DNA of 64,000 nt from Kiloniellales bacterium. GTDB lineage: Bacteria > Pseudomonadota > Alphaproteobacteria > Kiloniellales > JAKSBE01. The notes below the pieces were generated by a model that was not told the DNA's origin, ran no database searches, and saw nothing but the letters and a program-made list of their open reading frames with translations. The DNA lies in assembly GCA_030066685.1 (NCBI GenBank), contig JASJBF010000003.1, positions 1-64,000 on the forward strand, given 5' to 3'. Both the position numbers and the translations under genes were made by a program. Positions 3,421 through 9,216 of the stretch are shown here, one piece after another. Numbering within the stretch: the first letter of the stretch is position 1; every line of letters starts with the position of its first letter.

Positions 3421-6087
3421 CTAGAAGCAGTACTGCAAGGTGGCGAAGCCCGATCTCAGTTCGCCGACCTGCGACCGCCAGTGACCTTCGGGTTCCCGGC
3501 TACCGTCGCGGATGATCTCGGCGAGGAGCGTGGCGAGCGTGCCGAAGTCATCCTCTTTCATCCCGTAACGCGTCATCTCCTGCGCGCCCATCCGCACGCC
3601 GCTGGCGGCGGCGAAGCTAGGGTCGTCGTAGTAGGCCTGTGGATTGGTAATGACGTGGTTGGTCTCCAGCAGCGTCGCCAGATACTCCCCCTTGGCGCGG
3701 GCGCCGCGCAGCAACACTTGATGCGTCTCGGTGTAGTCGCAAGCAGGGTCGCCCTCGAGCACCAGCCCCTCCGCCGCCAGCCCTCTGGCGAAAGCCTTCG
3801 CATTGGCCACGACTTGTCGGGGGTACTCGTCCTTGAACTGCATCATCTCGTAGGTGGCGCCGAGCAGCCCCAGCAACGTGCCCAGATGGTGGTTGCTCAC
3901 GTGCCCGGGGAACGTGCGCGATTCCACGTAGCGCCAGAAGTCCTCGAATGGATGCCCGGGGCCGATGTTGCTCAGAATGACGCCGCGTTGCGGCCCGAAG
4001 AACGACTTGTGGGTCGAGCCGGTCACGACATCGGCGCCCTCGGCGAGCGGGTCCTGAAAATAGGGCCCGAGCAGGCCCAGGACGTGGGCGCCGTCGTACA
4101 TGATCAGCGGTCGTTCCGGGTTGTCGCGGCCCCATTCGTCGTGGACGAAGCCGGCGATCTCCTCGACCGGCTCCTTGTGGATGATGACGCTGCGCCCGAA
4201 GACCAGGAGCTCCGGCCGGGTCTCGGCGATCAGGCGTTTGGTCGCCTCGACGTCGATGCGATGCGGGTTGTCGTCCCGGATCGGGAAATGCTCCACCGCC
4301 GGCTGCCCGCTCTCCGGGTCCCGGGCGACGTAGTTGCGCAGCGCGCCGGTCGGCTGCGCGCTGAGGTGCCCGCCCTTGTTCAGGTCGTGGACCAGGACGC
4401 GGTTGAGGCGGCGCGGCTGTCCGCCCCGGCGATGCCGGTTCTTGAACTGCAGGAAGGCGTCATAGACCGTGTCATTCGCCATCTGCCCGCTGATCACCCG
4501 GGGCTCGACCCGCGCGCAGTCGAAGAAGGTGCGCAGCGCCGCCTTGAGTTCCTCCTCCTTCTCCATGATGAAGCCAGTGCCCTTGTAGTAGCGCACGTCC
4601 GGCGCCTCCGGGCCCAGCGCTGGCACCCGGTTGTGCTCGTTGTAGCGGCCGGCGGGATCCGCGGAGACCAGCCGGTCGACGTAGTCGGAGACGGTCTGTT
4701 CCGAGGGGATCAGGTTGATGCATTCGCGCCGCCGCCATTCGGTGTTGCCTTTCGCATCCTCGGCGAGCTGCGCGGCGAGGGCCGAGGCGTCCGCGCCCTC
4801 CAGGCTCCGGATCGCGCGCGGACCGGTGAAGCCGGTGTAGGGCCGGCCGTAGGGCGGCAGGGGCCAGAGGTTCTTTTCGACCAGCTCCGCCTCGAAGCTG
4901 TTGCCCCGGGCGTCCGCGACCTCGAGGACCACCGGCCGGTCGGTCCGATAGGCGATGGTCGAGTGCAGCAAGGCCAGGCCGATCGGCCTGAGCTCGTGGT
5001 CCTCGGCGGGTGCAGCCGTGACCCCGCCGCCCTTGAAGCGCGCGTAGGGAACGCTGCTGCCCGAGGTGACGAAGCCGACGGGCGCGCCCTCCAACAAGAC
5101 CTTGAAGCCGGCGCGCAGGGGCCGGCGGGCGCCGAAGACGGCGATCGGCTGCACCAAGTGTTTCAGGCAGCGCTGCTCGACCGGCGTGTCCAGCTCTCCC
5201 CGCTTGATCCGCACGAATTCGTCGCGCTGCCGCTCCAGCTGCTCCTGTCCGATGTAACCGTCCAGACCTTCGGGGCGCACCGCGAAGGCGGCCAGGGCGT
5301 TGGCGAAGATGGGGATCTCCTGGCCCTCTGGGTCGAGGCCCAGCTCGTGGCCGTAGAGCGGCAGCCCCGCCTCCATGCGCAGCGAATCCCGGGATCCCAG
5401 GCCGCAGGGCACCGCGCCGTGACCGACCAGCTGGCCCCAGGTCGTCAGCACGCGTTCGCTGTCGACGAAAAGCTCGAAGCACATGGCCTCGCCGGTGTAG
5501 CCGGTCCGCGCCACGATCATCTGGTGGCCGTCCGCCTGCGTGACCGTCAGGCGGTTGCGCTTGTGCTCGGGCAGTGCGCCGGCGCCGATCACCTTCTCCA
5601 GGATCTCGGAGGACCGCGGTCCCTGCAGCGAGATCATCGCCAGGCGCTCGCTGATGTCCTCGAGCTCGGCGTCGAAGCTGTTGTGCGCTTGCAGCCAGTC
5701 CCAGTCCTTCGGCCGGTTCGAGGCGTTCACGACCAGCAGGAAGTCGGCCTCGTCCAGCTTGTAGAGGTAGGCGTCGTCGATCGCCCCGCCGGTCTCGTTG
5801 GCCAGGAAGCTGTACTGCGCCTGCCCCGGCGCCAGGGCGCGGGCGTTGTTGGTCAGGACCCGCAGCAGGAAGGCTTCGGCGCCCCGTCCGGTGACCCGGA
5901 AGCGGCCCATGTGGGAGACGTCGAAGAGACCGGCCTGGCGGCGCGTGGCCAGGTGCTCCTGGATGATGCCGCTGGGGTACTGGACGGGCATGTCCCAGCC
6001 GCCGAAGTCGATCATCTTGGCGCCGGCACCGACGTGCCAGTCGTGAAGTACGGTTCTCTTGAGTCCGTCCTGGCCTGCCTCCGACAT
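3421..6087 (-). CDS. Fusion of GcvT-type aminomethyltransferase and serine hydroxymethyltransferase
   Basis: This 888-residue protein joins two one-carbon enzymes in one frame. Residues 1 to about 415 are a full GcvT module with FDVSHMG, GGAIDDAYLY (folate/catalytic Asp), NASNR, ARTGYTGE and GLGSRDSLRMEAGLPLYG. Residues about 427-888 are an SHMT-like PLP module with NLIPSEQ, MYDGAHVLGLL, the PLP-lysine motif STHKSFFGP (Lys694) and RMGAQEMTRYGM. GcvT moves an aminomethyl carbon to tetrahydrofolate; SHMT interconverts glycine and serine using methylene-tetrahydrofolate. A joined enzyme could hand the folate carbon directly from one site to the other, but that is inference. The canonical gcvT is elsewhere in the window under a glycine riboswitch, so this is a second T module. 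The ATG is preceded by GGGAGG at five bases. True SHMT, alpha-methylserine or related aldolase activity cannot be separated by eye. Confidence 0.85.
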   Translation of the reverse strand: MSEAGQDGLKRTVLHDWHVGAGAKMIDFGGWDMPVQYPSGIIQEHLATRRQAGLFDVSHMGRFRVTGRGAEAFLLRVLTNNARALAPGQAQYSFLANETGGAIDDAYLYKLDEADFLLVVNASNRPKDWDWLQAHNSFDAELEDISERLAMISLQGPRSSEILEKVIGAGALPEHKRNRLTVTQADGHQMIVARTGYTGEAMCFELFVDSERVLTTWGQLVGHGAVPCGLGSRDSLRMEAGLPLYGHELGLDPEGQEIPIFANALAAFAVRPEGLDGYIGQEQLERQRDEFVRIKRGELDTPVEQRCLKHLVQPIAVFGARRPLRAGFKVLLEGAPVGFVTSGSSVPYARFKGGGVTAAPAEDHELRPIGLALLHSTIAYRTDRPVVLEVADARGNSFEAELVEKNLWPLPPYGRPYTGFTGPRAIRSLEGADASALAAQLAEDAKGNTEWRRRECINLIPSEQTVSDYVDRLVSADPAGRYNEHNRVPALGPEAPDVRYYKGTGFIMEKEEELKAALRTFFDCARVEPRVISGQMANDTVYDAFLQFKNRHRRGGQPRRLNRVLVHDLNKGGHLSAQPTGALRNYVARDPESGQPAVEHFPIRDDNPHRIDVEATKRLIAETRPELLVFGRSVIIHKEPVEEIAGFVHDEWGRDNPERPLIMYDGAHVLGLLGPYFQDPLAEGADVVTGSTHKSFFGPQRGVILSNIGPGHPFEDFWRYVESRTFPGHVSNHHLGTLLGLLGATYEMMQFKDEYPRQVVANAKAFARGLAAEGLVLEGDPACDYTETHQVLLRGARAKGEYLATLLETNHVITNPQAYYDDPSFAAASGVRMGAQEMTRYGMKEDDFGTLATLLAEIIRDGSREPEGHWRSQVGELRSGFATLQYCF

Positions 6088-6145
6088 CGCAGCCTCCCTC
6101 TTCGATCCGTCCAGTAAAGCGCCTCCGGTCGGGGCGCATCAAGGG
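6088..6145 (-). promoter_or_regulatory. Promoter and leader of the GcvT-SHMT fusion, duplicated upstream of the deaminase
   Basis: On the minus strand a TTGATG box (6142-6137) is followed after 18 bases by TTTACT (6118-6113), then by GGGAGG (6098-6093) and the ATG at 6087. The 14-base block GCTTTACTGGACGG occurs at exactly the same distance from the start codon upstream of the deaminase (6901-6888). The preceding 25 bases also match at about two thirds of positions. This is either a duplicated promoter or a shared operator. Confidence 0.6.
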
Positions 6146-6161
6146 CGCAGACTCGCCAGGG

Positions 6162-6278
6162 CTAGAGCACGATGATATGAGGTTGAAGCAACCTCATATC
6201 TGAATCGTGCTCTAATCTATTGAAGTAGAACGGGATTCAGACATGAAGCCGGATTGGCTTAGTGTCATCCCGCTCTAG
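6162..6278 (-). repeat. Double-hairpin dispersed repeat, copy A
   Basis: About 117 bases made of two adjacent imperfect palindromes. The first (6163-6213) pairs AGAGCACGAT...GATATGAGGTTG with its complement around a three-base loop. The second (6228-6277) pairs a related arm around AAGCCGGATTGGCTT. CTAG is found at both ends. The same element occurs inverted at 33209-33326 with only a few differences: a three-base deletion here and about six substitutions. It has no coding capacity. Its last bases overlap the stop codon of the deaminase gene. It resembles a MITE or REP-type element; no transposase for it is visible. Confidence 0.85.
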
Positions 6279-6868
6279 CCGAGAGGGATGTCGTTCTCCG
6301 CCTTGCGGTCCTGGTAGGCCGCGGACAGCTCGGCATAGGTCCGGGTCAGCGCCTCGATCCGCGCATCGAAGCCGGCCCGGACGCCGGCCTCGCAATCGCC
6401 GATCAGCTCGGAGAGGCTGTGGGCGCTCCAGTAGGCGTTGCTGCGGGCGTAGCCGCCGGGCTCCAGGCGGAAGACCTCCTTCAGGATCCGGAGGTCGTGG
6501 GGGATGGCGAAGGCGTCCCGCGTGTCCTCGTGGCTGAAGAGGTGATGGAAGTTGTCGAAGCCGCTCCAGGTGATGGCCGAGAGGCAGAGCGGGCAGGGCT
6601 CGTGGGTTGCCAGGAAGAGGCAGTCGCGAGTGGCGGGGCGCTCGGCCTGAGGCAGCTCGTAGAAGGCCTTGAGGGCGTGGACCTCGCCGTGCCACAGGGG
6701 GTTCTCGATCTCGTTGTTGCTCTCCGCGACGACCAGGGTGAGGTCGGACTTCCGCAGGATGGCGGCGCCGAAGATCTTGTTGCCGGCGGCGACGCCGGCC
6801 CGGGTCTTGGGCAGGATGTCGCGTTCCACGACTTGAAGCAGCCGGTCGATGAGCGCGCTGTCGGACAG
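6275..6868 (-). CDS. Zinc-dependent cytidine/deoxycytidylate deaminase-family protein, probable CTG start
   Basis: The 197-residue protein carries the deaminase zinc motifs HGE (in PLWHGEVHAL) and PCPLC, spaced as in the CDA fold, after an N-terminal segment containing GVAAGNKIFGAAIL. Family members deaminate cytosine, guanine or related bases or nucleosides; the substrate cannot be told here. The only ATG/GTG-type start is a GTG at 6829, which would remove a well-formed N-terminal helix. A CTG at 6868, with AAGGAGG five bases upstream, aligns exactly with the ATG of the GcvT-SHMT gene in the duplicated leader, so I prefer CTG. The frame is open further upstream without a better start. The TAG stop is formed by the terminal CTAG of the adjacent repeat, so the natural C-terminus may have been changed by insertion. 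Confidence 0.8.
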   Translation of the reverse strand: MSDSALIDRLLQVVERDILPKTRAGVAAGNKIFGAAILRKSDLTLVVAESNNEIENPLWHGEVHALKAFYELPQAERPATRDCLFLATHEPCPLCLSAITWSGFDNFHHLFSHEDTRDAFAIPHDLRILKEVFRLEPGGYARSNAYWSAHSLSELIGDCEAGVRAGFDARIEALTRTYAELSAAYQDRKAENDIPLG

Positions 6869-6926
6869 GACGGCCTCCTTCTGACGGCCGTCCAGTAAAG
6901 CCCGGCCGGCCGGCCCGCAGCAAGCG
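6869..6926 (-). promoter_or_regulatory. Promoter and leader of the deaminase gene, paralogous to the fusion-gene leader
   Basis: TTGCTG (6923-6918), an 18-base spacer, TTTACT (6899-6894), then AGGAGG (6879-6874) and CTG at 6868. Element spacing is identical to the leader of the GcvT-SHMT gene and the block GCTTTACTGGACGG is identical. It begins only 12 bases downstream of the egtD stop codon. Confidence 0.55.
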
Positions 6927-6937
6927 ACGCGGCGCGC

Positions 6938-7918
6938 TCAGGCGGCGACTAGGTAGTGCAGGCTGAACAGACGGCGGTCGTCGACCCAGGCCTCCAGGGG
7001 CCGCCAGCCGGCAGCCTGGGCCTGGGCGCGGAAGCCGTCCAGGCTGTATTTCCGCGAGTCCTCGGTGTGGATGGTCTCGCCCTGCTCGAGGTCGAAGCTG
7101 CAGTCGCCGAGAACGATGCGCTGCCGCCGGCGACTGACCAAGTGCATTTCGATGCAGCCCCGGGCCCGGTTGTAGTGCGCCTCGTGCCGGAAACCCTCGA
7201 GGTCCAGCTCGGCGCCCAGCTCTTGGCGCATCCGCGCCAGGAGGTTGAGGTTGAAGGCGGCGGTCACGCCCTCGGGGTCGTTGTAGGCGGCGTGCAGGAT
7301 CGCCTCGTCCTTCTGAAGGTCGATGCCGATCAGAAGGCCGCCGCCGGTGCCGACCAGCCCGGCGATCCGCCGCAGGAAGCGGGCGGCCTCGGCCGGCGCG
7401 AAGTTGCCCAGGGTCGAGCCCGGGAAGAAGCCGAGCCGGGCGTCCTCCGGCACCGCCTGCGGCAGGGCGAAGTCGCGGGTGTAGTCGGCGCAGACAGCGT
7501 GCACCGGCAGCCCGGGATAGTCCTCGGCCAGCTCCTGGGCGGCGCCCATCAGGTGCGCCCGCGAGATGTCGATCGGCACGTAGGCGGCGGGCGCCTGCAG
7601 GGCCTCGAGCAGGATCCGGACCTTGCGGCTCGAGCCGCTGCCGAACTCGACCAGGGTGGCCTCGGGGCCGGCCGCCTCGGCGATCTCGCCGGCATGGCGC
7701 CGCAGCAGCCCGATCTCGGTGCGGGTCGGGTAGTAGGCCTCCAGCTCGCAGATCCGGTCGAAGAGCCGGGAGCCCTGGGCGTCGTAGAAGAACTTGGCCG
7801 GGACCTGCTTCTGCGGCTGGCCGAGCCCGGCCAACACCGCGGCGCGGAAATCCTCGCCCTCGTGGCCGAGGTCGTGGAACTCCATCGACGGCGCGATCTC
7901 GGCGGTCCGGCTCCGCAT
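6938..7918 (-). CDS. egtD: L-histidine N-alpha-methyltransferase (ergothioneine biosynthesis)
   Basis: This 326-residue protein matches EgtD, which trimethylates histidine to hercynine with SAM. Visible signatures are KFFYDAQGSRLFDRICELEA near the N-terminus, the SAM-binding VEFGSGSSRKVRILLEAL, and FFPGSTLGNF. The C-terminal part contains IHTEDSRKYS and a terminal FSLHYLVAA. Length is normal for the family. Its ATG overlaps the egtB stop (TGATG at 7920-7916), so the two genes are translationally coupled and egtD is second in the operon. No EgtC or EgtE gene is nearby, so later steps must be encoded elsewhere. Confidence 0.93.
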   Translation of the reverse strand: MRSRTAEIAPSMEFHDLGHEGEDFRAAVLAGLGQPQKQVPAKFFYDAQGSRLFDRICELEAYYPTRTEIGLLRRHAGEIAEAAGPEATLVEFGSGSSRKVRILLEALQAPAAYVPIDISRAHLMGAAQELAEDYPGLPVHAVCADYTRDFALPQAVPEDARLGFFPGSTLGNFAPAEAARFLRRIAGLVGTGGGLLIGIDLQKDEAILHAAYNDPEGVTAAFNLNLLARMRQELGAELDLEGFRHEAHYNRARGCIEMHLVSRRRQRIVLGDCSFDLEQGETIHTEDSRKYSLDGFRAQAQAAGWRPLEAWVDDRRLFSLHYLVAA

Positions 7919-9216
7919 CAGGCGTCCTCCGCCAGGCGCAGGCCGGTGAACTGCCAGCGCTGATGCGGATAGAAGAAGTTGCGGTAGGTCGCCCGGACGT
8001 GGCCCTCGGGGGTCACGCAAGAGCCGCCGCGCAGGACGAACTGGTTGCACATGAACTTGCCGTTGTACTCGCCGACGGTGCCTTCCGGCGGCCGGTAGCC
8101 CGGGTAGGGCGCATAGGGGCTTTGGGTCCATTCCCAGACGTCGCCGTAGACCTGCCGCAGGCCATGGCCTTGCCGTGCCGGCAGCGGGCGCATCAGGTCC
8201 GCGCCGGCGAGGTTGCCGTCGACCGGCAGCCCGGCCGCGGCGACTTCCCACTCCGCCTCGCTCGGCAGGCGCTTCCCGGCCCAGCGGGCGAAGGCCTCGG
8301 CTTCGTAGAAGCTGACGTGGCAGACCGGCGCCTCGGCCTCGAGCGGCCGCAGGCCGGCCAGGGTCATGGTCTGCCAGGCGCCGTCGCGGCGCTCCCAGTA
8401 GCCCGGCGCCTCCCAGCCTTCCCTCTGGACCGTCGCCCAGCCGTCCGACAGCCACAAGGTCGGCGTCGCGTAGCCGCCGTCCTCGATGAAGGCCTGCCAC
8501 TCGCCGTTGCTGACCGCGCGCGCGGCGAGGCGGTAGGACCGCAGCAGGACCCGGTGGCGCGGGCCTTCGTTGTCGAAATGGAAGCCCTCGCCCTCGTGGC
8601 CGATCTCGTGGAGCCCGCCGTCGAAGCCGATCCAGGACGCCGCCGCCGCCCGGCCGACCGCCGCCGGGCGATAGGGCCGGTAGGCGGGCCTCAGGGGGTT
8701 GCAGGAGAAGGCGTGCAGCAGGTCGGTGAGTAGGAGCTCCTGGTGCTGCTGCTCGTGGTGGATGCCGAGCTCGACCAGGGGCGCGATTGTCTGCCAGGCC
8801 TTCGGGTCTGCCTCGGCGGCCAGGGTCTCCACCGCGGACGTGACGTGATCGCGGTAGCGTACGACCTCGGCCACCGAAGGCCGGGTCAGCAGGCCGCGCC
8901 GCGGCCGGGCGTGACGGGGCCCGGCGCCCTCGTAGTAGGAGTTGAAGAGGAAGAAGTAGTCGGGATCGAAGGCCCGGTAGTCCGCGGCGAACTTGGTCAG
9001 GATGAATTCTTCGAAGAACCAGGTGGTGTGCGCCAGGTGCCACTTCGCCGGGCTGGCGTCTTCCATCGACTGCACGACCTGGTCTTCCGGCGTCAGCCCT
9101 GCGGTCAGCGCTTCGCTGCGCCGGCGCAGGGCCTGGAAGCGCGTCATCAAAGGCGCCCGCTCGGCCTCGGCAGTGACGAGGTGAGCGGCGGAACGGGAGG
9201 TGGAGGATTTCGTCAT
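7918..9216 (-). CDS. egtB: Ergothioneine biosynthesis iron-dependent sulfoxide synthase
   Basis: The 432-residue protein is EgtB, the non-haem iron enzyme that couples hercynine with a thiol donor (cysteine or gamma-glutamylcysteine) to form the sulfoxide. The DinB-like N-terminal half carries the iron histidines in HLAHTTWFFE and in HHEQQHQELLLTD. The formylglycine-generating-enzyme-like C-terminal half (about residues 185-432) has the family motifs RWAGKRLPSEAEWE, GDVWEWTQS and FVLRGGSC. It heads the egtB-egtD operon. Which thiol it uses cannot be decided by eye, but EgtC, needed for the gamma-glutamylcysteine route, is absent from the neighbourhood. Confidence 0.93.
   Translation of the reverse strand: MTKSSTSRSAAHLVTAEAERAPLMTRFQALRRRSEALTAGLTPEDQVVQSMEDASPAKWHLAHTTWFFEEFILTKFAADYRAFDPDYFFLFNSYYEGAGPRHARPRRGLLTRPSVAEVVRYRDHVTSAVETLAAEADPKAWQTIAPLVELGIHHEQQHQELLLTDLLHAFSCNPLRPAYRPYRPAAVGRAAAASWIGFDGGLHEIGHEGEGFHFDNEGPRHRVLLRSYRLAARAVSNGEWQAFIEDGGYATPTLWLSDGWATVQREGWEAPGYWERRDGAWQTMTLAGLRPLEAEAPVCHVSFYEAEAFARWAGKRLPSEAEWEVAAAGLPVDGNLAGADLMRPLPARQGHGLRQVYGDVWEWTQSPYAPYPGYRPPEGTVGEYNGKFMCNQFVLRGGSCVTPEGHVRATYRNFFYPHQRWQFTGLRLAEDA

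Follow-up and report, generated by a model that had tools for sequence, protein, structure and literature searches.

The control region described here can be compared with two kinds of described DNA element and one described enzyme. Its closest counterparts among promoters are the core promoters of the alphaproteobacterial sigma-70 factor (RpoD), which it resembles in its TTG-led -35 element, 18-base spacer, T-rich -10 element and short Shine-Dalgarno leader. It differs from them in that the putative -10 element, TTTACT, is without the usual A at position 2, and in that the conserved run reaches GCTTTACTGG. In the alphaproteobacterium Sinorhizobium meliloti the -10 region of sigma-70 promoters is reported to be poorly conserved, and a motif is described there that keeps the TTG but otherwise shows little resemblance to RpoD promoters (PMC3616915).

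The second comparison is with promoter duplication between neighbouring genes, with which this locus shares a direct repeat confined to the 5' control regions of two unrelated adjacent genes. Unlike such a duplication, the copy here also covers the Shine-Dalgarno sequence and the first codons, and separate species keep it at one gene or the other. The third is with the guanine deaminase of the cytidine deaminase (CDA) superfamily (PDB 1wkq, 1tiy). This enzyme is the best solved match of the deaminase encoded at the locus, and relatives of that deaminase stand in a purine-gene context. The differences are the low similarity, the length of 197 aa, the lack of an NCBIfam match and the egtB-egtD neighbours found here. 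Literature searches found nothing on the GcvT-SHMT fusion or on the arrangement of deaminase and fusion gene described here.

In what follows the window is the whole 64,000-nucleotide stretch of DNA that was analysed. Its own genome (G000, 73 contigs) and those of two sister species (G001 and G002) together form the genus sample. Comparison of the control unit is based on four sequences from these three genomes, two of which are fragmented.

Layout and uniqueness of the repeated unit

The deaminase and fusion genes of the window are headed by an ungapped direct repeat, recovered by an independent repeat search of the window, in which 46 of 64 bases (72%) are identical at a spacing of 781. Each copy spans the region from a -35-like TTG through the Shine-Dalgarno sequence to codon 3, and both start codons are in register (Table 1). 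A preliminary description of the locus had reported two copies of the 14-mer GCTTTACTGGACGG; their positions proved correct, as did the 20 bases between the near end of the 14-mer and the start codon at each gene (ATG at 6087 for the fusion gene, CTG at 6868 for the deaminase). The match between TTGATG and TTGCTG, and the 18-base spacer that separates each from TTTACT, were also borne out on the minus strand. An AGGAGG was correctly placed at both genes, the literal sequence being found only at the deaminase while the fusion gene has GGGAGG; GGAGG begins 10 bases ahead of either start codon. Alignment of the four unit copies finds the -35-like TTG in all of them, and GCTTTACTGG, identical in all four, is the longest invariant run.

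Table 1. Positions of the features of the locus within the window
Feature	Position	Strand	Basis or remark
GcvT-SHMT fusion gene, 888 aa, ATG 6087	3421..6087	-	Pfam GCV_T 7.9e-79, SHMT 8.4e-28
Cytidine-deaminase-superfamily, guanine-deaminase-like gene, 197 aa, CTG start	6275..6868	-	Pfam dCMP_cyt_deam_1 1.1e-8
egtD, upstream neighbour	6938..7912	-	TIGR03438 7.2e-122; ends 69 bases before deaminase start
egtB, upstream neighbour	7918..9216	-	TIGR03440 1e-177
Control unit copy 1, 64 bases, fusion gene, CTTG to codon 3	6080..6143	-	repeat finding
Control unit copy 2, 64 bases, deaminase gene	6861..6924	-	repeat finding
14-mer GCTTTACTGGACGG, fusion gene	6107..6120	-	exact match
14-mer GCTTTACTGGACGG, deaminase gene	6888..6901	-	exact match
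Putative -35 TTGATG, fusion gene	6142-6137	-	sequence, alignment
Putative -35 TTGCTG, deaminase gene	6923-6918	-	sequence, alignment
Putative -10 TTTACT, fusion gene	6118-6113	-	sequence; weak TATAAT match
Putative -10 TTTACT, deaminase gene	6899-6894	-	sequence
Shine-Dalgarno core GGAGG, fusion gene	6097-6093	-	sequence
Shine-Dalgarno core GGAGG, deaminase gene	6878-6874	-	sequence

The window is GC-rich and holds as many as 536 pairs of repeated 14-mers (55 of them on the same strand within 1 kb, many overlapping), so that the repeat of GCTTTACTGGACGG alone proves little. The full unit is a different matter. Against a 64-base background with a mean of about 18 and a standard deviation of about 3.6, an identity of 46/64 lies about 8 standard deviations higher. 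The next-best place among 128,000 window positions reaches 33/64 with the fusion copy as query and 37/64 with the deaminase copy, and a further 327,000 positions of the same genome give a maximum of 36/64. If the 14-mer is left out, 41 positions remain from the TTG to the start codon, and 25 of these are the same in both copies, compared with 12.6 expected from shuffling. Many unrelated copies of the block, which the preliminary description had regarded as damaging to its case, do not occur: a search of the whole 5.96 Mb genome for GCTTTACTGGACGG gave the two exact matches of the window, and a single mismatch added no others. Allowing up to two mismatches gave 31 matches, the two exact ones included, versus 54 for a reversed control pattern.

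It is probable, judging from its composition, that the unit functions as a promoter. A core promoter with its leader would account for the sharp conservation edge at the TTG (see below) and for the T-rich hexamer placed 18 bases further on, with a Shine-Dalgarno sequence behind it. The two hexamers together match the sigma-70 consensus at 8 of 12 positions for the fusion gene and 7 of 12 for the deaminase, and the spacing of 18 lies within the range of 16-18. TTTACT has no A at position 2, and a consensus scan that required this A and 9/12 matches returned no sigma-70 promoter at the unit. Because the -10 hexamer is weak, we use the term promoter-like only. A coding role for the block was considered and rejected, since the deaminases of G000 and G002 do not share one reading frame through the leader.

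Conservation in related genomes

The unit is retained in both sister species, at the fusion gene in G001, where 56 of 64 bases are identical to copy 1, and at the deaminase gene in G002, where the figure is 50 of 64 relative to copy 2 with one gap; the G002 leader has one extra base ahead of the CTG. When the G001 fusion unit alone was used as query, the two best places on the window strand were copy 1 (56/64) and copy 2 (43/64), followed by a score of 33. This search, with a single unit from outside the window, is not circular, unlike the profile built on all four copies, whose partly circular scores are 60-68 bits on its own copies, at most 19.5 bits elsewhere in the three genus genomes and at most 20.3 bits elsewhere across 61 genomes of the order. 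The pattern TTG-N19-GCTTTACTGG, searched with zero mismatches in the genus sample, occurs only at both G000 genes, the G001 fusion gene and the G002 deaminase gene.

Eight sites of the alignment split fusion-type from deaminase-type units and none conflicts with this split, so the two units diverged before the species separated. In the fusion pair of G000 and G001, conservation is about 0.9 inside the unit and 0.2-0.25 upstream of it, with a sharp edge at the -35-like TTG.

GcvT-SHMT fusions themselves are rare, being present in 6 of the 61 genomes of the order (G000 and G001 counted) and in 2 of 385 genomes in a sample of the class (G000 counted). The unit is absent upstream of the other fusions examined (G013, G019, G023, G024 and G239). 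These more distant genes have different DNA ahead of them, which marks the unit as particular to this genus. Two further candidates were set aside. The sequence GCTTTACTGAACGG, a one-mismatch match to the 14-mer in G001 and G002, sits in an unrelated intergenic element, and TTTACTGGAC, ahead of a deaminase gene in a Paracoccus metagenome-assembled genome (L100), lies at another distance without a profile match and was taken as chance. The intergenic element is an inverted repeat of CCCTCCCCCATCGAGGGGGAGGG type that holds GCTTTACTGAACGG at two unrelated loci of G001/G002 (1480-1570 in both L120 and L122).

The two genes and their neighbourhood

The deaminase matches Pfam PF00383 and has the zinc-binding motifs HGE (HxE) and PCPLC (PCxxC). 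With 1wkq, the E value is 8.8e-7, so that both the motifs and the similarity to a known enzyme that mark a CDA-type guanine deaminase are found. Among 80 loci elsewhere, members of the family lie beside xanthine dehydrogenase, allantoinase and ureidoglycolate lyase in 19-20 and beside xanthine permease in 17. These neighbours, together with the guanine deaminase match, suggest guanine or a related purine as the likely predicted substrate. In the DNA compared at these 80 loci outside the genus, the deaminase is never accompanied by the fusion gene, nor by egtB or egtD.

The deaminase appears to start with the CTG at 6868, a rare start codon in bacteria. There is no in-frame ATG, GTG or TTG between the upstream stop and this codon, the corresponding codon of many homologues is ATG or else GTG, GGAGG stands at the appropriate distance and the CTG (6866-6868) is conserved in G002. 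The start position given in the preliminary description can thus be kept; the nature of the codon had gone unmentioned there.

The genome of the window holds a second, divergent copy of the fusion gene, which is truncated where contig C61 ends. Its N-terminal part is missing from the assembly and a third unit may therefore exist. Compared with window positions 3421-4260, the C61 copy (L151, 15854-16700) differs at a single base in a stretch of 150, beyond which identity drops to 50-80%, a pattern that suggests either gene conversion or a collapsed assembly repeat. From about codon 657 onwards, the C-terminal part of the window fusion departs to an unusual degree from that of G001.

On the minus strand of the window the gene order is ispH, thrB, rnhA, egtB, egtD, deaminase, fusion, where ispH, thrB and rnhA are names that we presume from reading the protein sequences. 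G001 has the same egtD-egtB-rnhA-thrB-ispH order, on a contig that ends inside the last codons of egtD. In this genome the fusion gene is convergent to a peroxiredoxin-like gene, and that same gene is faced by egtB-egtD-deaminase in G002 and by the second fusion gene on C61. This exchange of partners (deaminase at L150, fusion at L149/L151) points to rearrangement of a once joint cluster. We infer that the deaminase and fusion genes stood side by side in the ancestor, and that subsequent losses or moves took a different course in each lineage. Between the deaminase and the fusion unit, window positions 6163-6277 contain a nested palindromic pair, TAGAGCACGAT...ATCGTGCTCTA and TAGAACGGGAT...ATCCCGCTCTA, that looks like an intergenic repeat, although a 20-base probe taken from it matches the window only once.

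Origin and function of the repeat

Taken together, these comparisons make it quite likely that a short control region, consisting of a putative core promoter, a ribosome-binding leader and the first codons, underwent a local duplication that placed a copy ahead of each gene. Duplication of a control region was one of the possibilities raised in the preliminary description, and it is well supported by a homology of 64 bases that is kept in two relatives. The similarity extends beyond the size of a binding site, it is in register with both genes, and the copies cluster by gene across species. According to this model, a 5' unit of about 64 bases would have been duplicated before the species of the genus separated, carrying a putative housekeeping-type core promoter, a short Shine-Dalgarno leader and the first two or three codons. 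Each copy would most likely start its own transcript about 20 bases ahead of the start codon. With a separate transcript start for each copy, the deaminase would be served by an internal promoter downstream of egtB-egtD and the fusion gene by one of its own, and the two genes may thereby have similar basal output.

Other origins for the likeness of the two copies are much less probable. Chance similarity between GC-rich upstream regions might be favoured by the wealth of repeated 14-mers in the window, but in practice it is already refuted by an in-register identity so far above background and by the retention of the unit in two relatives. That gene conversion or a recent rearrangement made the copies alike, rather than one old duplication, is very improbable. 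The fusion sequence of G000 does seem to recombine, as the abrupt change in identity of the C61 copy illustrates; the window copies, however, show no sign of homogenisation, and the division of sites into fusion type and deaminase type across species, eight to none, speaks against it.

How the unit acts is a separate issue. It had been proposed that one common regulator links the deaminase and the fusion enzyme in one response, but the analysis brought no positive evidence for this and no shared operator-like dyad. A dedicated regulator of both genes is possible, for instance one that binds GCTTTACTGG as an operator overlapping the promoter and controls the two together, and the invariance of this run, the longest in the four copies, would suit it. 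We consider it unlikely all the same. The run coincides with the expected place of the -10 element, and the deaminase is unlinked to the fusion gene in the 80 loci elsewhere. A genome-wide search for the block, suggested earlier as a means of finding a regulon, led only to the two known copies and to no further genes, and in G000, G001 and G002 no additional site was detected by the 14-mer, by TTG-N19-GCTTTACTGG or by the four-sequence profile. As far as draft genomes allow, the occurrence of the block at no other gene rules out a regulon. With two targets only, sequence cannot separate the regulator model from a shared core promoter, which alone would give similar basal expression without a dedicated regulator. 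It is less likely still, and indeed improbable, that the unit acts as RNA, as a leader hairpin or a small-RNA target, with transcription coming from upstream. The deaminase lies close behind egtD, and its leaders in G000 and G002 can fold with the Shine-Dalgarno sequence paired; yet the energies of these folds are not clearly better than those of shuffled sequences (z -1.36 and +0.78), the fusion leader has no such fold and no Rfam match was obtained at E values up to 1. The deaminase leader fold (window 6866-6894) uses partly different base pairs in G000 and G002, and a hairpin in the spacer between -35 and -10 was no better than shuffles in three of four copies.

Conclusions

It is unlikely that the two genes form a dedicated switch, in which a private regulator or leader mechanism couples purine deamination with the folate/glycine fusion and perhaps with ergothioneine synthesis. 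If such a switch did exist, nitrogen release and one-carbon supply would shift together in this genus. The shared unit gives no evidence for a new regulon. The duplication of the 5' control unit is real, local and old. Events of this sort are ordinary, but this one has left a tidy phylogenetic trace and is dated by relatives that retain one or the other copy. On a small scale it illustrates clearly how a gene may come to be expressed by sharing in the promoter and leader of the gene beside it. From the shared unit one would also expect the purine-type deaminase and the rare GcvT-SHMT fusion to be expressed alike, which offers a testable functional link between them.
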